From: an uncultured Opitutia bacterium
GTDB lineage: Bacteria > Verrucomicrobiota > Verrucomicrobiia > Opitutales > Opitutaceae
Direction: 5' to 3'
Length of the DNA stretch: 64,000 bases
Assembly: GCA_903839035.1 (NCBI GenBank)
Contig: CAIMAQ010000125.1
Span: 2,501 to 66,500, forward strand
Shown: one piece after another, positions 2,923 to 56,067 of the stretch
How positions within the stretch are numbered: the first letter of the stretch is position 1
How the letters are laid out: every line of letters begins with the position of its first letter
Position numbers and translations under genes: made by a program
The notes under the pieces: generated by a model
What the model saw: only the letters and a program-made list of their open reading frames with translations
What the model was told of the DNA's origin: nothing
Databases searched by the model: none

Positions 2923-3711
2923 TTACGCCGAACCCCGGCGCCTGCGGTAGTCGCGTGGACTCAGCCCCACCGCCGCCCGGATGGTCTTGTTGAAAAAATG
3001 CAGGTCCGGCAGTCCCACCTCGCCCGCGATGGTCTTCACCGCGAGCGTCGTGTGCGCCAGCAGGTGCAACGCGTACTCAACCCGGCGCTGGCGGATGTAG
3101 CCCTCGATGGTCACGCCAAACTGGGAACGGAACAGCCGCGTGAGGTGATTGTGTGAAATGTCCGCCCGCCGGGCGATGGCCGGGATCGTCAGCGGCTGCG
3201 ACAGGTGCAGCTCGATCTCGCGCACCGCGCGGCTGAGGGCGGGGTGCTGGCGCTGGTGCGGCGCCCGCTCGGTCATGGGTTGGCTGGCGAGTTGCCACAA
3301 CACGTCCCACAGCCGCACCGACGCCCTCCGGGGCTGGGAGGGCAGCCAGCCGGCCGCTTCCTCCAGCGCCCGCGTGAGGGAATCAAACGCGTCACCCACG
3401 TCCTGCATCACGGGAATCGCTACCAGGTCGCCGCCCACCGGCAGCCGGAAATGCGCGAAGGTGTGCTGTGATTCGCCCCGAAACCGGTAGACGATGCGCC
3501 CGTTGGGCGGCGTGATTCCGGCCCAACCCGGAGCGATCGCAAACTCGCGGCCGTCAATGGTCACCTGGCCCTCGTACCGGTACAGATGCAGGCACCACAG
3601 CTCTGGCAACTGGTATTCCTCGACCGCCTGTTTGCGCCCGTGCACTGCCCGGCCCGCCTGCACGAGCTGCGGCGGATTCTTCAACGGCAGCTGCCAGATG
3701 GCGGTATCCAT
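2923..3711 (-). CDS. AraC family transcriptional regulator
   Basis: 262 aa. An N-terminal cupin-like sensing region (about 1-140) is followed by a C-terminal double helix-turn-helix: IPAIARRADISHNHLTRLFR (first HTH, about 184-203) and the family signature region around TIAGEVGLPDLHFFNKTIR with GLSPRDYRRRR near the C terminus. The ligand and targets are unknown. The gene starts 10 bp after the purN stop (3722) on the same strand, so it may be co-transcribed. Full-length for the family. Confidence 0.9.
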   Translation of the reverse strand: MDTAIWQLPLKNPPQLVQAGRAVHGRKQAVEEYQLPELWCLHLYRYEGQVTIDGREFAIAPGWAGITPPNGRIVYRFRGESQHTFAHFRLPVGGDLVAIPVMQDVGDAFDSLTRALEEAAGWLPSQPRRASVRLWDVLWQLASQPMTERAPHQRQHPALSRAVREIELHLSQPLTIPAIARRADISHNHLTRLFRSQFGVTIEGYIRQRRVEYALHLLAHTTLAVKTIAGEVGLPDLHFFNKTIRAAVGLSPRDYRRRRGSA

Positions 3712-24760: not shown

Positions 24761-24795
24761 GGGTTATGGGTTATGGGTTATGGGTTATGGGTTTT
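24761..24795. repeat. Heptamer array (GGGTTAT)x5, last copy imperfect
   Basis: Four exact GGGTTAT copies and a fifth GGGTTTT, 7 bp before the PDZ gene's ATG and touching the stop codon of the upstream gene. Copy-number change would alter spacing in this operon. One of several period-7 arrays in the window. Confidence 0.95.
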
Positions 24796-34809: not shown

Positions 34810-35057
34810 GCCCGTAGCTTCGCTTTAACCATGCCAGCAGACCCGGGTCACGGCGGAGGTGTTGAGCCCCAGCGGTTTGCCCTGCACACGGGCGGCCGGG
34901 GCGCGGCGAAGGGCCCGCCGGTCGTGCAAAATCCCGGGAAATCCCCGGACAGTGGCTGCAAATTGCACGGCGCGGGGGGATATTTCCCCGCCGGCGATTT
35001 CTTTTGTCGAACCCGACCCCAAAACCCTCTTAGCCTCGCGATCGTTCCACCCCCCGC

Positions 35058-36290
35058 ATGTCCACTCCCACCGCCACTCCCCCCAAGGCCGCGGCTGCCG
35101 CGCCCACCCCGCCGGCGGTAAAACTGACCGACCTCGAAATCAAGGACGCCCAGCTGATCTTCGGCTCCGTCTGGTCGGACCTCGAGGCGGACTTCGGCCG
35201 GGAGAACCTCCGTTTCCCGAAGGAGATCATCCTCCTCGGCGGCGCCCCCGGCGCGGGCAAGGGCACCAACACGCAATTCATCACCAAGACCCGCGGACTG
35301 ACCTGCCCGCCGATCGTCATCAGCGCGCTGCTCGACTCCCCCGAGGCCAAACGGCTGAAGGACGCCGGCCACATGGTGGGCGACCGGGAGGCGGTCGGCC
35401 TGCTCTTCCGCGAGCTGATGAAGGAAGCCTACCGCGACGGCGTCATCCTCGACGGCTTTCCCCGCACCAGTGTACAGGTCGAGTGCCTGAAGCTCCTCGT
35501 CGACAAGATGCAGGCCCTGCGGCGCGAGTTCTTCACCACGCCGCTCGGCATCCATTTCCGCCAGCCGACCATCCACATCATGGTGCTGTTCGTGGACGAG
35601 AAGGAATCCATCGTCCGTCAGCTCAAGCGCGGCAAGGAGACGTTCGCGCATAACGAGGAAGTCACCCGCACCGGCGTCGGCCAGCTCTGGGAAGACCGGC
35701 CCACCGACCACGAGGAGAACCTCGCGCGCCGCCGCTACCGGGTGTTCAAAGAGCAGACCTGGGATGCGCTCCAGTCGCTCAAGGAGATTTTCCACTACCA
35801 CTTCATCAACGCCCAGGGACCGATCGAGGAGGTGGAGCAGAACATCCTCAAGGAGCTCGAGTACCAGAGCACGCTCGAGCTCGACCCGCGCACGGTGGAC
35901 CGGCTCCGCAACCTGCCGGTGGCCAGCGAGATCATCGTGCATGCGCGGCAGGAGCTGGTGAAGCGCCTCGACAGCCATGAGTTCGGTCAGCCCGAGCTGT
36001 TCGCCAAGGTCGTCGCCTTCATCGCCAAGAAGATCATGCCGATCGTGCAGCGGCATGCCATTTCCGGCTGCGCCCACATCAACACCGAGGACCCGATGCT
36101 CGACGACCCGACGGCGCTCGCGATGCTGATCGATGTGTTTTCGGAGCGCGGCTTCCACGCCATGGTGGACATCCACCGCATCGAGGTGCCGGAAAGCGTC
36201 GACCTCGCCACCGGCGCGATCAAGTGCCGCACGAAAAAGGTCTACCGCATCCAGATCCGTTTTCAGGGGTCCGAGATCCGCCGCGGGTAG
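35058..36290 (+). CDS. Adenylate kinase-like nucleoside monophosphate kinase with C-terminal extension
   Basis: 410 aa, about twice the size of adenylate kinase. A Pro/Ala-rich start (1-25) is followed by the kinase P-loop GGAPGAGKGTNTQF (61-74) and the NMP-binding region LDGFPRTSVQVE (131-142). The LID-type segment is reduced. The C-terminal part (about 230-410) contains NILKELEYQSTLELDPRTVD and DIHRIEVPESVDL and matches nothing I recognise. It probably phosphorylates nucleoside monophosphates, with the extension adding regulation or a second role. The four-helix-bundle gene overlaps its 3' end on the other strand. Confidence 0.75.
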   Translation: MSTPTATPPKAAAAAPTPPAVKLTDLEIKDAQLIFGSVWSDLEADFGRENLRFPKEIILLGGAPGAGKGTNTQFITKTRGLTCPPIVISALLDSPEAKRLKDAGHMVGDREAVGLLFRELMKEAYRDGVILDGFPRTSVQVECLKLLVDKMQALRREFFTTPLGIHFRQPTIHIMVLFVDEKESIVRQLKRGKETFAHNEEVTRTGVGQLWEDRPTDHEENLARRRYRVFKEQTWDALQSLKEIFHYHFINAQGPIEEVEQNILKELEYQSTLELDPRTVDRLRNLPVASEIIVHARQELVKRLDSHEFGQPELFAKVVAFIAKKIMPIVQRHAISGCAHINTEDPMLDDPTALAMLIDVFSERGFHAMVDIHRIEVPESVDLATGAIKCRTKKVYRIQIRFQGSEIRRG

Positions 36291-36666
36291 CGGCGGATCT
36301 TATTTTCGAATTTTGATTTTTGAACAGCAGGGTTCGGCGTGAGGCGACCATGATGGCGGTGAGCTCACTTGCCTCGCTGAGGAGTGCGGAAATCTTGGCG
36401 GCGGGCATCAATCCGATGTCGGACAGGAGCTCCAACCAGAACGAGCATTCATCTGCCCCCTCCTCGACGGTCGTGACCTTCGCCACCATGTCCGCCCGGG
36501 ATTTCGCCCGGCAAACGGCTCGGTAGTTGGCTGCCACCGACGTACCGGCGCAGGCCAGTTGGTTGGCGATGATTCGCACGGTCCGGGTCTCAGGCAGGTC
36601 GTCGACCAGTTGCAGCAGGCGAATGGAAAAATCCATCGTGCGCCTTTTCATTTCGCTTTCCGTCAT
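36220..36666 (-). CDS. Four-helix bundle protein (S23/IVP-like family)
   Basis: 148 aa from the ATG at 36666; a GTG at 36750 is possible. TMDFSIRLLQLVDDLPETRT, ANQLACAGTSVAANYRAVCR and the Glu/Trp-containing EEGADECSFWLELLSDIGLM are typical of the 23S rRNA-intervening-sequence (four-helix bundle) family, also related to Avd of diversity-generating retroelements. Its function is unknown. The end of the ORF runs through the left repeat arm (LLFKNQNSKIR) and 71 bp into the antisense of the kinase gene, so the true family C terminus lies near residue 122. Flanked by heptamer arms. Confidence 0.85.
   Translation of the reverse strand: MTESEMKRRTMDFSIRLLQLVDDLPETRTVRIIANQLACAGTSVAANYRAVCRAKSRADMVAKVTTVEEGADECSFWLELLSDIGLMPAAKISALLSEASELTAIMVASRRTLLFKNQNSKIRSAATRGGSRTPENGSGCGRPFSCGT
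36303..36323. repeat. Left heptamer arm of the four-helix-bundle unit
   Basis: TTTTCGA ATTTTGA TTTTTGA, three period-7 units, 12 bp after the kinase stop. Inversely complementary in pattern to the array at 36765-36788 on the far side of the gene. Confidence 0.8.
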
Positions 36667-36764
36667 GGCGCCAATCAATCCGCCTCTCATCGCCCCCGCC
36701 GAAACTCGATCGCAATTTTCCCGTACCCAACGCGTGATCCACCCCTTCACCCGCGGATCGGGCC

Positions 36765-36788
36765 AATCGAAAATGGAAAATCGAAAAT
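36765..36788. repeat. Right heptamer arm of the four-helix-bundle unit
   Basis: AATCGAA AATGGAA AATCGAA plus a partial copy. Its reverse complement (CATTTTCGATTTTCCATTTTCG) matches the left arm in unit and order. Together they enclose the four-helix-bundle gene. Confidence 0.8.
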
Positions 36789-36821
36789 GCGCTACGAGTG
36801 TGCGCCGCTTACTCGTAGCGC
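36789..36821 (-). terminator. Terminator overlapping the stop codon of the MacB-like permease
   Basis: Perfect 11-bp stem: GCGCTACGAGT (36811-36821 read on minus) and ACTCGTAGCGC (36789-36799), with the TAA stop falling at the stem-loop junction. On the minus strand it is followed by ATTTTCGATTTT, part of the heptamer arm, which provides the T-rich tail. The inverted copy repeats the gene's last codons (L-R-Y-E). Confidence 0.7.
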
Positions 36822-38059
36822 AGGGCTTCGATCGGGTCGAGGGAGGCGGCTTTCCAGGCGGGATAAAAGCCGAAGCCGACGCCGATGCCCGAGCAGACGA
36901 TCAGGCCGAGCGCGGCCCAGTCCCACGGGAACACCACCGACGCCTTGAGCATCAGGGCCAGCCCGTTGCCGCCGGCCACGCCGAGCAGGATGCCGAGCAC
37001 GCCGCCGGCCAGCGAGATCGCGACCGACTCGATGAGAAACTGGGTGAGGATGCTGGCCTTGCGCGCGCCGATGGACTTGCGGATGCCGATCTCCTTCGTC
37101 CGCTCCGTCACGCTGACGAGCATGATGTTCATGATGCCCACGCCCGCGGCGAGCAGCGCGATGCCGCTGATCACAAACGAGCCCGCCGCAATCACGTCCG
37201 CCACCTTGGCAAACGTCGCGATGAGGGAGTCGTTGGAATACAGCTCGAAGTCGTTCTCCTGCTCGGGGGTGAGGCCGCGCACGATACGCATCGCGGTGAT
37301 GCCCTTGTCGATGGTCTCGTTGTACAGGAGCTGGGACGGCGCCTGCGTCGCGATGTTGATCGTGTGGCGGGCGACGCCGAAGTCATTGAGGAACCGGGTC
37401 AGCGGGACCATGACGATCGCGTCCTGGTTCTGGCCGAAGGAGGAGCCCTTGTCCGCAAAGACGCCGATGACCGTGTAGGTGCGCTCGTTGACCTTGATCA
37501 TTTTCCCAAGCGGGGATTCCGAGGGAAAGAGCCGCTTCAGGATGGCCTGGCCAATCACGGCCACGGGCCGGGCGAATTCGACATCGTCCGCGCCCAGGTT
37601 GCGGCCGAGCTCAATCGTGTACTGGTTGGCCGTGATGAAATGCTCGTTGCTGCCGCAGAAGGTAATGCCGGGCGTGGTTTTCCGGTTCTGGTACCGGGCC
37701 TGCACGGTGATGTTGTTCTCGAAGCTCTTCACGCAAACGACGTCCGCGATTCCCTCCATCAGCCGCTGGTAGCGCAGGGCCTCCTCCAGCGTGATGTCGC
37801 GCCGCATCTCGTAGCGACGGCGGTTTGGCCCCTCCTCGTCGCCACCGCCACCGTTGACGGGGTATTTGGCGAACTGGAACATGTTGGAGCCGAGGAAACT
37901 CAGGCCGTTCTCGATGGAGCCGCGCAGCGCCGACACCGCGGTCATCACGCCGATGACCGAGAACACGCCGATGGTGATGCCCATCATGGTGAGTCCGGAG
38001 CGGAGCTTGTTCACGCCCAGCGAACCCAAGGCCATGCGGAGGATTTCGGAAAGGCCCAT
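36809..38059 (-). CDS. MacB-like ABC transporter permease (FtsX family), second copy
   Basis: 416 aa. N-terminal membrane segment (GLTMMGITIGVFSVIGVMTAV, about 20-40), a large periplasmic MacB_PCD domain (about 45-280), then three membrane helices with the FtsX-type segment VTERTKEIGIRKSIGARK (about 312-329) at the cytoplasmic face. The C terminus ASLDPIEALRYE is family-typical. Operon order on the minus strand is HlyD adaptor, ATPase, permease, permease; the ATP-binding domain is a separate protein, unlike E. coli MacB. Confidence 0.9.
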   Translation of the reverse strand: MGLSEILRMALGSLGVNKLRSGLTMMGITIGVFSVIGVMTAVSALRGSIENGLSFLGSNMFQFAKYPVNGGGGDEEGPNRRRYEMRRDITLEEALRYQRLMEGIADVVCVKSFENNITVQARYQNRKTTPGITFCGSNEHFITANQYTIELGRNLGADDVEFARPVAVIGQAILKRLFPSESPLGKMIKVNERTYTVIGVFADKGSSFGQNQDAIVMVPLTRFLNDFGVARHTINIATQAPSQLLYNETIDKGITAMRIVRGLTPEQENDFELYSNDSLIATFAKVADVIAAGSFVISGIALLAAGVGIMNIMLVSVTERTKEIGIRKSIGARKASILTQFLIESVAISLAGGVLGILLGVAGGNGLALMLKASVVFPWDWAALGLIVCSGIGVGFGFYPAWKAASLDPIEALRYE

Positions 38060-38064
38060 GGCGT

Positions 38065-39312
38065 TTATTCGTAACGGAGCGCGACGACCGGATCGAGGCG
38101 GGCGGCGCCCCAGGCCGGGGCAAAGCCCGAGAGGATGCCGGTCACGACGGAGACCAGCATGCTGATGAACACGAGGTTGATGGAAAAATCGATGGGGAAG
38201 GACGGCATGGCGGCCTGGAGGCCGAGACAGGCGCCGTAGGTCAGCAGCAGCCCGGCCACGCCACCGATCAGGCAGATGGAAACGGCCTCGATCAGGAACT
38301 GCAGGAGGATGGTGCGGCGACGGGCGCCGAGCGCCTTGCGAGTGCCGATCTCCTTCGTGCGTTCCTTCACACTGACAAAGGTGATGTTCATGATGCCGAT
38401 GGCGCCGACAAAGAGCGACAGGCCGGTGATGAACAGACCGGCGAGGGCGATGCCCTGCTTCACGGGATCGAGCACGGCCTTGAAGGCCTGCTGCTCGTTG
38501 ATCGAGAAATTGTCGCGTTCGCCGGGCAGCTGGCCGCGCACGCGGCGCGTCGCGCCCTCGAGCTCGTCGCGGGATTCCTCCAGCCGGTTCTTGTCTTTCA
38601 CCTTCACGCGGACGTCCACGCCACGCCGCAGGCCGAGGTATTTCTTGAAGGCTTCGAGCGGGATGAAGACCTGGTTGTCGAAGCTGAACAGGCCGAGGAA
38701 CGAGCCCTGCTTGGCGAGCACGCCGATCACCGTGACTGGGTGGCCGCTCACCTGCACGGACTGGTCGAGCGGCGAGCGGCCCTGGAACAGGGCTTCCGCC
38801 ACATCGGCGCCGAGGATGGCAACGGGCCGGCCGGAATTGGCCTCAGTTTCGTTGAAGAAGCGCCCCTCGGTCAGATCCACGCTGCTGATGCGCGAGTACT
38901 CGCCCGTGGTGCCGAGGATCACCGAGTTGACCTTGTATTCGCCGTTCTTGACCGGGCTGCCCCGCATGGCGACGGGCACCGCGATCTCGAGCGTGGAGTT
39001 GGGCGTGTTCTCAATGACCTGGTTCAATTTCTCCGCGATGTCGGCGGTGATGCGCGGGCGGTTCTGGTAATTCCACCAGTCCTCCACCCCGCCCCACGGC
39101 CATTTCTGCACGTAAAGGATGTCCTCCCCCAGCATCGCGAGGCTGTTCGAGAAACCTTTGTCGATGCCGCTGATCGCCGTGCCCATCAGCGTCACCGCGA
39201 CGATGCCGATGATGACGCCGAGCGCGGTGAGCACGGAACGCATCTTGTTCGCGCGGATCTGCGCGAAGGCGATGCGGAAGGACTCGGTAAACTCGTAGAT
39301 CAGGCGGCGCAT
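38065..39312 (-). CDS. MacB-like ABC transporter permease (FtsX family), first copy
   Basis: 415 aa with the same architecture as the neighbouring permease: membrane helix at about 21-41, periplasmic domain, then three C-terminal helices with VKERTKEIGTRKALGARRRT. The C terminus ARLDPVVALRYE mirrors that of the paralogue. Five bp separate the two genes. They probably form a heterodimer for export of a lipophilic molecule, peptide or antibiotic through an outer-membrane TolC partner not seen here. Confidence 0.9.
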   Translation of the reverse strand: MRRLIYEFTESFRIAFAQIRANKMRSVLTALGVIIGIVAVTLMGTAISGIDKGFSNSLAMLGEDILYVQKWPWGGVEDWWNYQNRPRITADIAEKLNQVIENTPNSTLEIAVPVAMRGSPVKNGEYKVNSVILGTTGEYSRISSVDLTEGRFFNETEANSGRPVAILGADVAEALFQGRSPLDQSVQVSGHPVTVIGVLAKQGSFLGLFSFDNQVFIPLEAFKKYLGLRRGVDVRVKVKDKNRLEESRDELEGATRRVRGQLPGERDNFSINEQQAFKAVLDPVKQGIALAGLFITGLSLFVGAIGIMNITFVSVKERTKEIGTRKALGARRRTILLQFLIEAVSICLIGGVAGLLLTYGACLGLQAAMPSFPIDFSINLVFISMLVSVVTGILSGFAPAWGAARLDPVVALRYE

Positions 39313-45644: not shown

Positions 45645-45739
45645 GGTCATGGGTCATGGGTTATCGGTGATGGGCAACCTGAGGAAGGCGCCGAGACCGA
45701 GGTTCAGTGCCCATGGCCCATCACCTATCACCCCTCACC
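45645..45739. repeat. Gene-less inverted heptamer pair
   Basis: Left arm GGTCATG GGTCATG GGTTATC GGTGATG (45645-45672); right arm 45712-45739, whose reverse complement reads GGTGAGG GGTGATA GGTGATG GGCCATG. Arms enclose 39 bp. Lies between the SlyD-like gene and ybbP-like gene. Confidence 0.8.
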
Positions 45740-45754
45740 CGCGTGCCGCGCGCC

Positions 45755-48367: not shown

Positions 48368-48397
48368 CCCACGGAACACACGGAAAACACGGAAGGT
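48368..48397. repeat. Left nonamer arm of the GxxExxY unit
   Basis: CCC then ACGGAACAC ACGGAAAAC ACGGAAGGT, three period-9 units. Six bp from the ybbP-like start and touching the GxxExxY stop. Confidence 0.85.
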
Positions 48398-48775
48398 TCA
48401 GAGCCCAAACCGCTCATGCTCGAGCATGGGAAAGTGGCCAAAATTAACCAGCAGCCCCACCCGCAGCCCGGTTGCGTGCAGGTAGTTCTGAATTTGGGCG
48501 CGGTGCTCATCCGCCAACTTGGATACCGCCTTGAGCTCAACCAGGACCGCACCGAAACAGATGAAATCAGCCACATATTGTTTGGTGAGTTGCTTCCCCT
48601 TGTAGGAGAGAAATAAGGGCACCAACGGCTGGGCCGGCACTTTGCGCAGAACAAATTCGATGGAGAGGCATTCCTGATACACGACCTCTAAAAATCCACA
48701 GCCCTTCTCCCGGTAGACTTCGAAACACGCCCCCAGAATTTCGTAAGTTTCCTTCTCCTGGACTAGTTTGCCCAT
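48398..48775 (-). CDS. GxxExxY family protein
   Basis: 125 aa from the ATG at 48775. The defining motif is GFLEVVY (27-33), followed by YKGKQLTKQYVADFICFGAV (about 59-78) and VELKAVSKLADEHRAQIQNYL (core Glu-x-Lys of a PD-(D/E)xK-like nuclease fold). Function unknown; the family is known for occurring in many copies in repeat-rich genomes. Here it is bounded on both sides by inverted nonamer arms and sits between two genes that are otherwise adjacent partners (ybbA and ybbP). Confidence 0.92.
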   Translation of the reverse strand: MGKLVQEKETYEILGACFEVYREKGCGFLEVVYQECLSIEFVLRKVPAQPLVPLFLSYKGKQLTKQYVADFICFGAVLVELKAVSKLADEHRAQIQNYLHATGLRVGLLVNFGHFPMLEHERFGL

Positions 48776-48788
48776 AATGCATCGGGCC

Positions 48789-48818
48789 AACTTCCGTGTG
48801 TTCCGTGTATTCCGTGGG
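48789..48818. repeat. Right nonamer arm of the GxxExxY unit
   Basis: Reverse complement reads CCC ACGGAATAC ACGGAACAC ACGGAAGTT, almost identical to the left arm. Together they form near-perfect 30-bp inverted repeats around the GxxExxY gene. Confidence 0.85.
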
Positions 48819-53658: not shown

Positions 53659-56067
53659 TCACCGCAGCAACGCCTCCGCCTGCCGCACCAGCAGGGCGAA
53701 CTCGCTGCGGTAGCCGCCGACGTCCCCGTCCGTGCCGGCCTCCGCCCACGTGCGCACGTCCGCCAGGGTGCCGCTGCCCTTGTGCGGCGAATCCCGCAGG
53801 ATCATCCCGAACTCCGCCACCGCCGCCGCGAACTTGAAGTCCGCACTCGCGGCCGCAAACCGCGCCCCGCCGTCCGTCAGCGGGAACTCCAGCTTCCGGC
53901 TGACTGCTCCCGCCGGCTCCTTGTAGCGCACCTTGAGGGTGAGCAGCTCACGCGAGTTTCGAGTTTCGAGTTTCGAGTTTCGATTCTCAGCGACCCGATC
54001 CTGGCCGGCACTGACGGCGGTATACTTCAGCGGATCCACCGCCGGCGCACCCATCACCCCTGACCCCTCGCCCATCGCCTGCGGCATCGCCGCCGGCACG
54101 ATCTCGTACAGCGCCGTCACCGTGTGTCCCGCGCCGATCTCGCCCGCGTCCACCGCGTCGTTGTTAAAATCCTCCTTCTTCAGCAGCCGGTCCTCGTAGC
54201 CGATCAGCCGGTAGCTCGCCACCTGCGCGGGATTGAACTCCACCTGCAGCTTCACGTCCTTCGCAATCGTCAGCAGCGTCCCGTTCACCTGCTCCACCAG
54301 CAGCTTTTCCGCCTCGCGGCGCGTGTCGATGTACCCGTAGTTGCCGTTCCCCTTGTCGGCCAGCTTCTCAAGCGTGGCGTCCTTGTAGTTGCCCATGCCG
54401 AAGCCGAGCACCGTCAGGAACACCCCGGACTTCGCCTTCTCCTCGATCAGGCGCGCCAGCTCGCCTTCGCTCGTCACGCCGACATTGAAATCCCCATCCG
54501 TGCACAAAATCACGCGGTTGAGTCCGCCCGTCACAAAGTTCGCCTTCGCGATGTCGTAGGCCAGCTGGATGCCCATCGCGCCATTGGTCGAGCCGCCCGG
54601 CGCCAGCGCGTCGAGCGCCTCCAGGATCTCGCGGGACTTCGCCACCGGCGTGGACGGCAGCGCCAGTCCGCTCGCCCCCGCATACACCACGATCGCCACG
54701 CGGTCGTCCGCGCGCAGCTTGCCGATCAGCAGGCGCATCGATTCCTTCACCAGCGGGAGCTTGTTGGCTTCGTCCATCGAGCCCGACACATCCAGCAGGA
54801 AGACCAGGTTCGCCGCGCCGCGCGCGGCCGTGGACACCTCGCGGCCCTTGAGCCCGATGCGCACCAACCGGTGCCCCGGCGCCCAGGGTGCGTCCGCGAC
54901 CTCCATCGAGGCGGCAAACGGCGCCCGCAGCGCGTCTTTGTTGTCGTCCGTCGTCCGTGGCGGGGCGTAGTGATACGGGAAATAATTCACGAGTTCCTCG
55001 ACGCGCACCGCATCCGGCGGCGGCAGGCGGCCCTCGGACAGGAACCGCCGCAGGTTGGCATAGCTGGCCGTGTCCACGTCGACGGAGAACGTCGACAGGG
55101 GGTTCTCCGCTGCGCCCTGGAAGTCGTTGTCGTGCTGATAGGCGTAGCTCTCGGTGTTGGACTCGAGTTTCCCCATGGCCCCAGCGGGAGGCGCGGGATT
55201 CTTGAGATAAGACCTATCGGCCACCCGGCCAACGCCTCCCGCGTAAAGCACAACCTCCGTCGGTCTTTGAACGTTCGTCTCGGCGAGGAACTCGGCTGAC
55301 TTCACTTCGCTCGTAAGCGGTGTGCGCTGCACCTGATTCAGATTGCCGCCGATCGCAGCCATGGACGTCGGGCTCGGGTCGGGCCGCGACCCCGTCTTCG
55401 CTTTTTGGGTCTCCTTGTCTTTCCCGGCCATGGCCAAGCGCAGTTGGTCCGACTGCGTCTGCCTTCTGGCATCCGAGTCCGTGCTATACCCAAAACGATC
55501 GGGTGCCGGCGAACGTGCCGCGGGCAGCGCCACGACGATCCCATTTTGGGGCGCAGCAACGGGCCGGAGTGCGGGGTCATCCTGCTTCTGGTCCGCCACC
55601 GCCTGGCCCGCCACCATCGCCATCGCGTCCACGCGGCCGCGGTCCGCCTCGTTTTTCGCCGCCGACTCAGCCGTGACGGTCGGCATATTCACCATCACGT
55701 AGCTTTTTTTCTCCGCAAACTTGACCAACGGCATCGCGGGCGGCTGCTCCCGGTAGGCGACGAGCACCGCAAAGGCCGCGGCCGCCAGTCCGCCCACGAC
55801 ATAATAGATCTGTGGGAAATTCAGCAGCTTCCCTTTCTTCACATAGGGATCGGGCTTCGCCACCGCCGCCGCCGGCACCATCGGCTCCGCGCCGAGCGCG
55901 TTCTCCAGCTGTGCGGCCGTGGCCTGGATCTCCGCCACGGCGGCACGCGCCGCGGGATCGTCCCGCAGCGCGGCCTCGACCGCGGCGAGATCCTCGCCCT
56001 CCAGCTCGCCGAGGGCAAAGGCAGTCAGGCGGGGATCATCCGGTGAAATCTTGGAAATGTCTTTCAT
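53659..56067 (-). CDS. YfbK-like von Willebrand factor type A protein with anti-sigma-like N terminus
   Basis: 802 aa from the ATG at 56067. N-terminal region DPRLTAFALGELEGEDLAAV (about 10-29) resembles an anti-sigma start, then one membrane helix (about 90-108). After a linker and a DUF3520-type region comes the VWA domain with MIDAS motif FLLDVSGSMDEANK (about 425-438) and the Asp in ILCTDGDFNVG. The C-terminal domain contains two in-frame heptamer arrays. The gene starts 4 bp after its sigma factor, so it probably acts as regulator or target of that factor. Compare YfbK of E. coli. Confidence 0.85.
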   Translation of the reverse strand: MKDISKISPDDPRLTAFALGELEGEDLAAVEAALRDDPAARAAVAEIQATAAQLENALGAEPMVPAAAVAKPDPYVKKGKLLNFPQIYYVVGGLAAAAFAVLVAYREQPPAMPLVKFAEKKSYVMVNMPTVTAESAAKNEADRGRVDAMAMVAGQAVADQKQDDPALRPVAAPQNGIVVALPAARSPAPDRFGYSTDSDARRQTQSDQLRLAMAGKDKETQKAKTGSRPDPSPTSMAAIGGNLNQVQRTPLTSEVKSAEFLAETNVQRPTEVVLYAGGVGRVADRSYLKNPAPPAGAMGKLESNTESYAYQHDNDFQGAAENPLSTFSVDVDTASYANLRRFLSEGRLPPPDAVRVEELVNYFPYHYAPPRTTDDNKDALRAPFAASMEVADAPWAPGHRLVRIGLKGREVSTAARGAANLVFLLDVSGSMDEANKLPLVKESMRLLIGKLRADDRVAIVVYAGASGLALPSTPVAKSREILEALDALAPGGSTNGAMGIQLAYDIAKANFVTGGLNRVILCTDGDFNVGVTSEGELARLIEEKAKSGVFLTVLGFGMGNYKDATLEKLADKGNGNYGYIDTRREAEKLLVEQVNGTLLTIAKDVKLQVEFNPAQVASYRLIGYEDRLLKKEDFNNDAVDAGEIGAGHTVTALYEIVPAAMPQAMGEGSGVMGAPAVDPLKYTAVSAGQDRVAENRNSKLETRNSRELLTLKVRYKEPAGAVSRKLEFPLTDGGARFAAASADFKFAAAVAEFGMILRDSPHKGSGTLADVRTWAEAGTDGDVGGYRSEFALLVRQAEALLR
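53953..53987. repeat. Intragenic heptamer array (CGAGTTT)x5, last copy imperfect
   Basis: Four exact CGAGTTT and one CGATTCT. Read in frame on the minus strand as ENRNSKLETRNSR within the VWA protein's C-terminal linker. Confidence 0.9.
54048..54075. repeat. Intragenic heptamer array
   Basis: CACCCAT CACCCCT GACCCCT CGCCCAT, four degenerate period-7 units, read on the minus strand as MGEGSGVMG in the VWA protein, 60 bp from the other array. Confidence 0.75.

Follow-up and report, generated by a model that had tools for sequence, protein, structure and literature searches.

What is a small S23p gene doing between two inverted arrays of 7-nt repeats at the junction of two convergent genes, and do the arrays belong to the gene, to the site, or to a unit that comprises both? 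The gene lies in a 64,000-nt stretch of DNA from an uncultured Opitutia bacterium of the Opitutaceae, which was analysed as a whole and is referred to here as the window. We compared the gene and its arms with S23p genes of the same family of bacteria and of other phyla, with the corresponding junctions in relatives, and with a second small gene family, GxxExxY, that is also enclosed by inverted arms in the window. The features of the window that are needed for the argument are the following.

36301..36791, − strand: whole arm-ORF-arm unit of ~490 bp between convergent genes; relatives have bare junctions, and locus L166 has an orthologous unit
36767..36788, no strand: 5′ arm (gene-oriented), + strand letters TCGAAAATGGAAAATCGAAAAT, period 7
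36302..36323, no strand: 3′ arm (gene-oriented), + strand letters ATTTTCGAATTTTGATTTTTGA, period 7, also coding for part of the S23p C terminus
36220..36750, − strand: S23p/four-helix-bundle ORF with profile and predicted-fold matches, probable start at 36666
35058..36290, + strand: adenylate-kinase-like neighbour, left boundary of the insertion site
36809..38059, − strand: MacB/FtsX permease neighbour, right boundary of the insertion site
45651..45740, no strand: gene-less heptamer hairpin of GGTNATG type with a loop of 42 nt; its heptamer type is that of the S23p unit L001
48370..48816, − strand: GxxExxY unit with period-9 inverted arms (comparison case)

The ORF at 36220-36750 belongs to the S23p (23S_rRNA_IVP) family by profile cut-offs and by fold. 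It matches PF05635 (E 4.9e-11, 43.2 bits; curated cut-off 33.8) and TIGR02436 (E 2.2e-18, 66.4 bits; cut-off 24), and its predicted structure (mean pLDDT 84.7) resembles the S23p structures 2RLD and 2GSC in Foldseek and, more weakly, Avd (4DWL and 8UB7; probability 1.00, TM-score by target ~0.83, E ~0.02). The two arms are 22 nt each, inverted, 82% complementary and 443 nt apart, and Tandem Repeats Finder reports a period of 7 for 36302-36323 (score 30) and for 36765-36788 (score 41). A previous sequence-only reading had described inverted TTTTCGA-type heptamers around an S23-like gene whose C terminus is encoded by the left arm and which runs into the antisense of the kinase gene, and this description was borne out: the ORF crosses the 36302-36323 arm, which encodes residues ..LLFKNQNSKIRS.., and overlaps the kinase gene by 71 nt. 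At the other end, translation probably starts at the ATG 36664-36666, ~100 nt inward of the 5′ arm, because the Met at this position aligns with a Met of the L166 orthologue. Among the ORFs of at least 60 aa that overlap the unit, no transposase or nuclease family was recognised; the four others, all on the + strand, match no Pfam family, and the S23p ORF matches S23p only. The unit thus lacks the transposase of its own that defines an insertion sequence or DNA transposon. Beside it, at 36788-36822, an inverted copy of the MacB gene's last bases lies next to the end of that gene and forms a 17-nt terminator-like stem adjoining the unit. By itself, the window arm pair is a weak finding, as the arms are degenerate and their inverted score of 14 is equalled or beaten by 46 of 3000 random interval pairs from the window. 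What places these arms beyond chance is the orthologous unit of L166 and the arm pattern across the family.

The junction between the kinase and permease genes differs between relatives. Of 30 family loci with the kinase gene, 16 (including L158 and L166) were readable at this junction, and the other 14 did not resolve as such. L166, in a genome of another genus (G003), has an orthologous S23p unit, whose arms are strong and of the identical heptamer type (score 31); the two S23p proteins share 62% identity where they align (pS 0.73, pN 0.25), with a dN of 0.31 and a dS of 2.7, which is near saturation. At L170, L171, L173, L175, and L182, the junction is bare, and the permease gene ends 2-10 bases past the kinase stop codon. 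L169 and L174 have spacers of ~40 and ~20 bases, and the longer spacers of L168 and L176 contain no hairpin above shuffled controls, which here and below preserve base composition only. Other relatives have hairpins that lack the gene. L163 (genome G052) carries the heptamer of the window unit around a long, different loop without S23p (score 31), and L172 carries it more weakly around a short loop, also without S23p (score 12 vs. at most 8 in shuffles). In L159 and L162, which are of the same genus as the window, the gene-less hairpins have heptamers unlike that of the window unit (TGTTAGG and CAAGGAA types, respectively), and in L179 the hairpin is of the repeat type found around GxxExxY genes. 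After the kinase stop codon of L163, ATTTTCG arms enclose ~200 nt of other, partly inverted sequence, a possible exchange of cargo. No target-site duplication was noticed when filled and bare junctions were read by eye and non-systematically. Because the junctions of relatives are bare, or hold a gene-less hairpin or an S23p unit, the window unit is an insertion and its gene is not fixed at this site. The comparison of empty sites downstream of the kinase gene, which the sequence-only reading had proposed, thus yielded five bare junctions as well as gene-less hairpins within the genus, and not a gene held in fixed synteny.

Are such arms a general property of S23p genes? TIGR02436 is present in 65 of 80 family genomes. 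The 200 bases to the left of the profile match were compared with the inverted 200 bases to its right at 92 family loci, which are the top of the E-value order and not a random sample (L013, which repeats L001, and L068 were left out; four rows at contig ends or in tandem were skipped in sampling, and some S23p matches with internal stops were retained in the arm counts). An inverted score of at least 14 was found at 84 of these 92 loci; among the controls, 19 of 277 small ORFs and 33 of 460 random intervals reached it. A period of 7 on both sides was present at 41 of 92 loci, in 2 of the 277 control ORFs, and in none of the 460 random intervals, and periods of 5, 6, 8, 9, 10, or 11 on both sides were present at none of the 92. 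The enrichment of inverted arms over control small genes on which the sequence-only reading had staked its proposal is therefore real in the family. In a second set, the best 80 of 578 confirmed S23p places in species genomes, found via one conserved S23p motif, the record titles point to many phyla, including Bacteroidetes, Acidobacteria, Nitrospirae, cyanobacteria, Planctomycetota, and candidate phyla. With the short-flank loci L198, L241, and L244 left out, inverted arms were present at 72 of 77 of these best-ranked loci; the corresponding frequencies were 3 of 73 for control ORFs and 19 of 385 for random intervals. Both flanks of these 77 loci (best of 578) had a period of 7 in 35 cases, of 8 in 11, and of 9 in 3, and none had a period of 5, 6, 10, 11, or 13 on both sides. 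Two S23p genes on cyanobacterial plasmids, from the two records examined among 23 plasmid records with an S23p match, also have such arms (scores 27 and 21).

The arms fit tightly around the gene and have a common polarity. At loci with an arm score of at least 16, the gap from the left arm to the nearest in-frame ATG has a median of 6 bases (67 loci; the choice of the nearest ATG favours small values), and the median distance from the S23p stop codon to the right arm is 2 bases; 26 of 74 stop codons fall within that arm or past its start. In the inward direction, G outnumbers C in the arms at 79 of 84 family loci and at 64 of 72 phyla loci (best of 578). The gene itself is under purifying selection, as the median omega is 0.24 across 60 same-site pairs (pS 0.05-0.65 only; S23p genes with internal stops excluded). 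Two further observations concern individual loci. In genome G027, which has 15 S23p matches, two S23p genes lie ~1.2 kb apart (G027:C122:12894-14727), and in L248, from a KSB1 genome, two Acido-Lenti-1 RNA matches (2474-2519 and 3047-3092) lie downstream of the S23p gene.

The two arms of a locus match each other, and the heptamer differs from locus to locus. Across the family, the median flank score is 20 for a locus' own arms in inverted orientation, vs. 10 in direct orientation and 10 between loci; the heptamers include GTAGCGA, GGAGTCA, GTTGAGA, TTAGGTT, AATTAAG, GAATCCA, and GGTNATG, as well as others. When the genes on both sides were used to assign loci to orthologous sites, own arms within a site scored a mean of 21.1 vs. 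16.9 for arms permuted between genomes, and 0 of 2000 permutations were as high (64 loci in 10 sites with at least three loci). The excess is absent at site S4 because one heptamer is common to all its loci. The S23p genes of S2 (11 loci) and S3 (8 loci) form single clades (support 94 and 95, respectively) that are common to nine and seven genera, and by eye their subclades carry different heptamers. Since each of these sites holds a single clade and the heptamers nevertheless differ between subclades, both arms of one old insertion have changed together. Other sites are not single clades: on the S23p tree, which is built from few columns, S1 (13 loci) requires five changes and S6 (5 loci) four. 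A gene-less hairpin is present in two versions in the window's assembly, one heptamer being missing from each arm; over a ~437-column overlap the versions also differ by four substitutions and one single-base gap, and an assembly artefact is possible. Mismatches between the arms, read on the sense strand, comprise 81 G-U and 173 A-C in the family (A-C prevails at 50 loci and G-U at 16) and 91 G-U and 103 A-C at the phyla loci (best of 578; A-C prevails at 30 loci and G-U at 23). The excess of A-C over G-U at the 84 family loci with a score of at least 14 has no simple explanation in G+C bias and is absent in the other phyla.

Gene and arms also go together between sites. One S23p clade with GTAGCGA arms occupies three unrelated sites, S4 between gyrB and gyrA, S6, and S11, with units of 428-439 bp from arm to arm that, by eye, each follow a stop codon and precede a start codon of the same orientation. 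The similarity between sites extends over 386-444 columns in four pairs. On the left, three pairs are similar from the outer arm end onwards and one pair from 17 bases into the arm; on the right, similarity continues 0, 3, and 11 bases past the outer arm end in three pairs and stops with the gene in one. Among different-site pairs with an S23p identity above 65%, arms match in 39 of 51, which are not independent pairs because those listed are mostly from the GTAGCGA clade; matches fall to 11 of 108 at 55-65% identity, 12 of 252 at 45-55%, and 67 of 1961 at 35-45%. The rank correlation between arm match and S23p identity is 0.18, a value reached in 0 of 500 permutations. Because close S23p relatives at three unrelated sites share both gene and arms, the S23p gene and its arms appear, from these alignments, to move as a unit. 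Among 80 within-genome pairs at different sites, the S23p identity does not exceed 69.6%, so that no recent jump is apparent.

Some heptamers are dispersed through a genome beyond the S23p unit. The pattern GGGTNATNGGTNATNGG has 34 hits in the window's genome and none in the reversed control. These hits make up 19 places, of which 18 were examined (a place on contig C126 with 4 hits was left out); 16 of the 18 have an inverted partner (score of at least 9), with the G-rich arm first in each. The 16 pairs include the S23p unit L001 and both versions of the one hairpin described above; the exceptions are L278, with a partner score of 8, and L292, a lone array. The loops of the gene-less hairpins look unrelated by eye. 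Across the family, the GGTNATG-type pattern occurs in 18 of 80 genomes and is frequent only in that of the window (G000; 34 hits) and in G054 (22 hits; next 6; reversed control at most 2), and each of the two has an S23p unit of this arm type (L001 and L021). Likewise, only G002 (17) and G051 (15) are rich in GGAGTCN arrays (others at most 2; control at most 3), and both have S23p units with a GGAGTCN arm (L028 and L030). In G027, which has the S23p unit L075 with GGAGTCA arms, the sole GGAGTCN hit is the unit's own arm. Dispersal of a unit's heptamer is not established as a rule across phyla: the heptamer had hits in five of five genomes preselected by arm type vs. 8 of 34 other genomes, but only three of the five had it dispersed beyond the unit's own arms. 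By position, some or all hits in G080, G081, and G083 appear to be the unit's own arms, the reversed control in G083 had 4 hits vs. 1, and L226 has the same arm type as the five preselected genomes yet lies outside that set. Several arrays were noted in addition. GGAGTCA arrays lie within ~8 kb around the S23p unit at G002:C1:23603-31695 and G051:C1:107487-114541, which looks like a local spread of arms. The window itself contains a lone GGGTTAT array of 4.7 perfect copies without an inverted partner (24761-24793), which makes it an exception among the GGTNATG loci of this genome, and, not far from each other, a CGAGTTT array (53953-53983; 4.4 copies) and a CCCATCA-like array (54048-54079), for which no inverted pair was reported.

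The GxxExxY genes provide a comparison. In the window, the GxxExxY gene at 48407-48751 on the − strand lies between period-9 arms at 48370-48394 and 48792-48816, and 31 of 32 GxxExxY loci have inverted arms (33 loci less L065, which is at a contig end). The arms have a period of 8-10 where one is visible and by eye contain a recurring CACRGAG-like motif; 31.6% of cross-locus arm comparisons match, whereas S23p arms vary freely. GxxExxY arms are therefore of another kind than S23p arms. The sequence-only reading had assigned both units the same architecture and suggested a general system. The GxxExxY gene with inverted arms is real, and a general system has strong support for S23p genes, with arms at 84 of 92 family loci and at 72 of 77 among the best of 578; GxxExxY genes have inverted arms as well, with a different period and a recurring motif. 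The two families meet between gyrB and gyrA, in different genera. At this junction, 30 loci comprise 6 S23p units, 7 gene-less hairpins, 2 GxxExxY units (L148 and L156, identified by position), 1 other ORF, and 14 with none of these. The hairpins, which score above shuffled controls (L157 was too short), have a period of 7 (L131, L137, L146, and L152), of 6 (L129 and L151), or no clear one (L134). By position, GxxExxY also lies just before gyrA in G007, G040, and G053, and in L156 the GxxExxY unit is by eye beside an apparent leftover arm of GTAGCGA type.

Three other explanations of the arms were weighed. If the arms were a property of the site, intergenic repeat hairpins would arise by slippage or template switching, or be kept as terminators, and small genes would enter their loops. 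Such a niche would account for the gene-less hairpins at gyrB-gyrA and at the kinase-MacB junction, for loops that by eye are unrelated, for the use of gyrB-gyrA by both S23p and GxxExxY genes, and for a window unit between convergent genes; that gene-less hairpins at one site differ between genera is likewise consistent with hairpins that are made locally. It does not account for S23p copies whose similarity at three unrelated sites extends into the arms, nor for arms that accompany close S23p relatives across sites. Because gene and arms go together between unrelated sites, the niche is the weaker reading for S23p, and we consider it unlikely; arms as a property of the site alone are opposed by the three-site comparison, though they are still a rival. 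For S23p, the apparent joint travel of gene and arms weakens the repeat-bounded niche that the sequence-only reading had put forward for both families.

Selection might also act on an RNA stem, the arms pairing in the transcript so that RNase III cuts the stem and the flanking transcript is undisturbed. Arms that covary and three-site units placed between an upstream stop and a downstream start in the same direction fit this explanation, as does the intervening sequence (IVS) in the 23S rRNA of Coxiella burnetii, which is described as being cut by RNase III in the stem, at the first heptamer (PMC4990558). An excess of G-U mismatches on the sense strand is, however, what it predicts, and the mismatch counts have the opposite bias in the family and no bias in the phyla set, so that selection on the sense RNA stem is not supported; a window unit between convergent genes also argues against it. 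We regard an RNA-level unit as improbable, and RNA processing of the arms may nevertheless be compatible with the mismatch counts. An ordinary small host gene, immobile and with terminator-like hairpins around it, would explain the purifying selection on S23p and the long persistence of S2 and S3 in nine and seven genera. We hold this to be very improbable, given that most control small ORFs are without such arms, that close S23p relatives occur with their arms at unrelated sites, and that the junctions of some relatives are bare.

Altogether, these findings support a model in which the window unit is probably one copy of a compact translocating unit that consists of a 7-mer array, an S23p ORF, and an inverted array. 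The best reading of its ends is that they are fixed in period and polarity and not in sequence. We suggest that the unit is an intergenic, widespread form of the element called an intervening sequence in a 23S rRNA helix. S23p would be an Avd-like protein without a recognised catalytic domain that recognises the arms or their hairpin and assists an activity of the host, or one acting in trans, in placing the unit at intergenic junctions. Slippage by 7 nt together with copying between the paired arms would keep the arms alike while they drift, and the gene-less hairpins would be miniature derivatives. More tentatively, these units could represent a class of bacterial mobile units in which period (7, sometimes 8), polarity, and the complementarity of the two arms define the ends, and sequence does not. 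In this class, an S23p oligomer would read the register or the hairpin, and the arms would be rewritten together such that each copy has a private, matched code; the rRNA IVS would be one landing site, and the heptamer hairpins dispersed in many bacterial genomes would be gene-less offspring. We consider this broader proposal possible rather than probable. The link between S23p and heptamers gives S23p a physical context, namely its arms, and the wider unit would include the rRNA intervening sequence as a special case. S23p units also provide a natural system for how two distant DNA arms remain matched amid sequence change.

How do these units relate to known systems? In diversity-generating retroelements, Avd acts with a reverse transcriptase and a template repeat. 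The window S23p protein has a similar fold to Avd, but the window's genome, which is 97% complete, has no match to RVT_1 (PF00078), the reverse transcriptase by which such a retroelement would be recognised, and this argues against a reverse transcriptase as the mover. REPINs with RAYT transposases and MITEs are short hairpins scattered between genes, with a related copy in the same genome that does carry a gene; S23p units differ from them in having no recognised transposase and no fixed end sequence. Y1_Tnp-type proteins act on hairpins, and two matches to Y1_Tnp (PF01797) are present in the window's genome (G000:C70:5990-6322 and G000:C57:25688-25909). As proteins of this kind act on hairpins, they are possible candidates for trans-acting partners of hairpin elements.

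Heptamer repeats are described as over-represented in bacterial genomes, with an unsettled explanation (PMC4679880, PMC4692102). The (GGGANTN)n heptamer arrays of Xanthomonas and Nostoc, with 70-75 inverted convergent pairs per Xanthomonas genome (PMC4692102), resemble the gene-less hairpins described here in their variable heptamer positions and inverted pairs. That work is a G-quadruplex study according to which heptamer repeats are generally not associated with mobile elements, and its main text does not contain the terms S23, 23S rRNA, or intervening (PMC4692102). The TAACTGA repeats of Beggiatoaceae, often just upstream of start codons, are likewise intergenic 7-nt tandem units; unlike S23p arms, they have one fixed heptamer and are direct repeats, with one inverted case, and the main text of that report lacks the term 'four helix' (PMC4679880). 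No published link between S23p genes outside rRNA and heptamer arms was found in a search mostly of literature other than subscription papers and preprints.

The closest known system is described for C. burnetii (PMC4990558). Its 23S rRNA IVS is 428-444 nt long, contains an S23p ORF, ends in a 28-bp terminal stem, and has tandem GACAGAT heptamers right before the ATG; S23p proteins are described there as widespread, with solved structures and no known function (PMC4990558). The present units share with this IVS the S23p ORF, the length (428-439 bp in the three-site clade), the complementary ends, and the heptamers, and the window unit likewise has complementary, stem-forming ends with heptamers around its ORF. 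It does not lie inside an rRNA gene, no Rfam match being present at 35000-38100 of the window. Among the 80 phyla loci (best of 578), none has an rRNA match; a location of S23p loci in rRNA or structured RNA was rejected on the same 80 loci, which gave one tRNA and two Acido-Lenti-1 matches. Unlike the Coxiella IVS as described in PMC4990558, the present units sit between protein genes, their heptamers vary freely while the arms co-evolve, some copies lack the gene, and the protein, instead of decaying, is conserved. Because the rRNA location that defines an IVS is absent, the present units are a variant of the IVS and not members of it.
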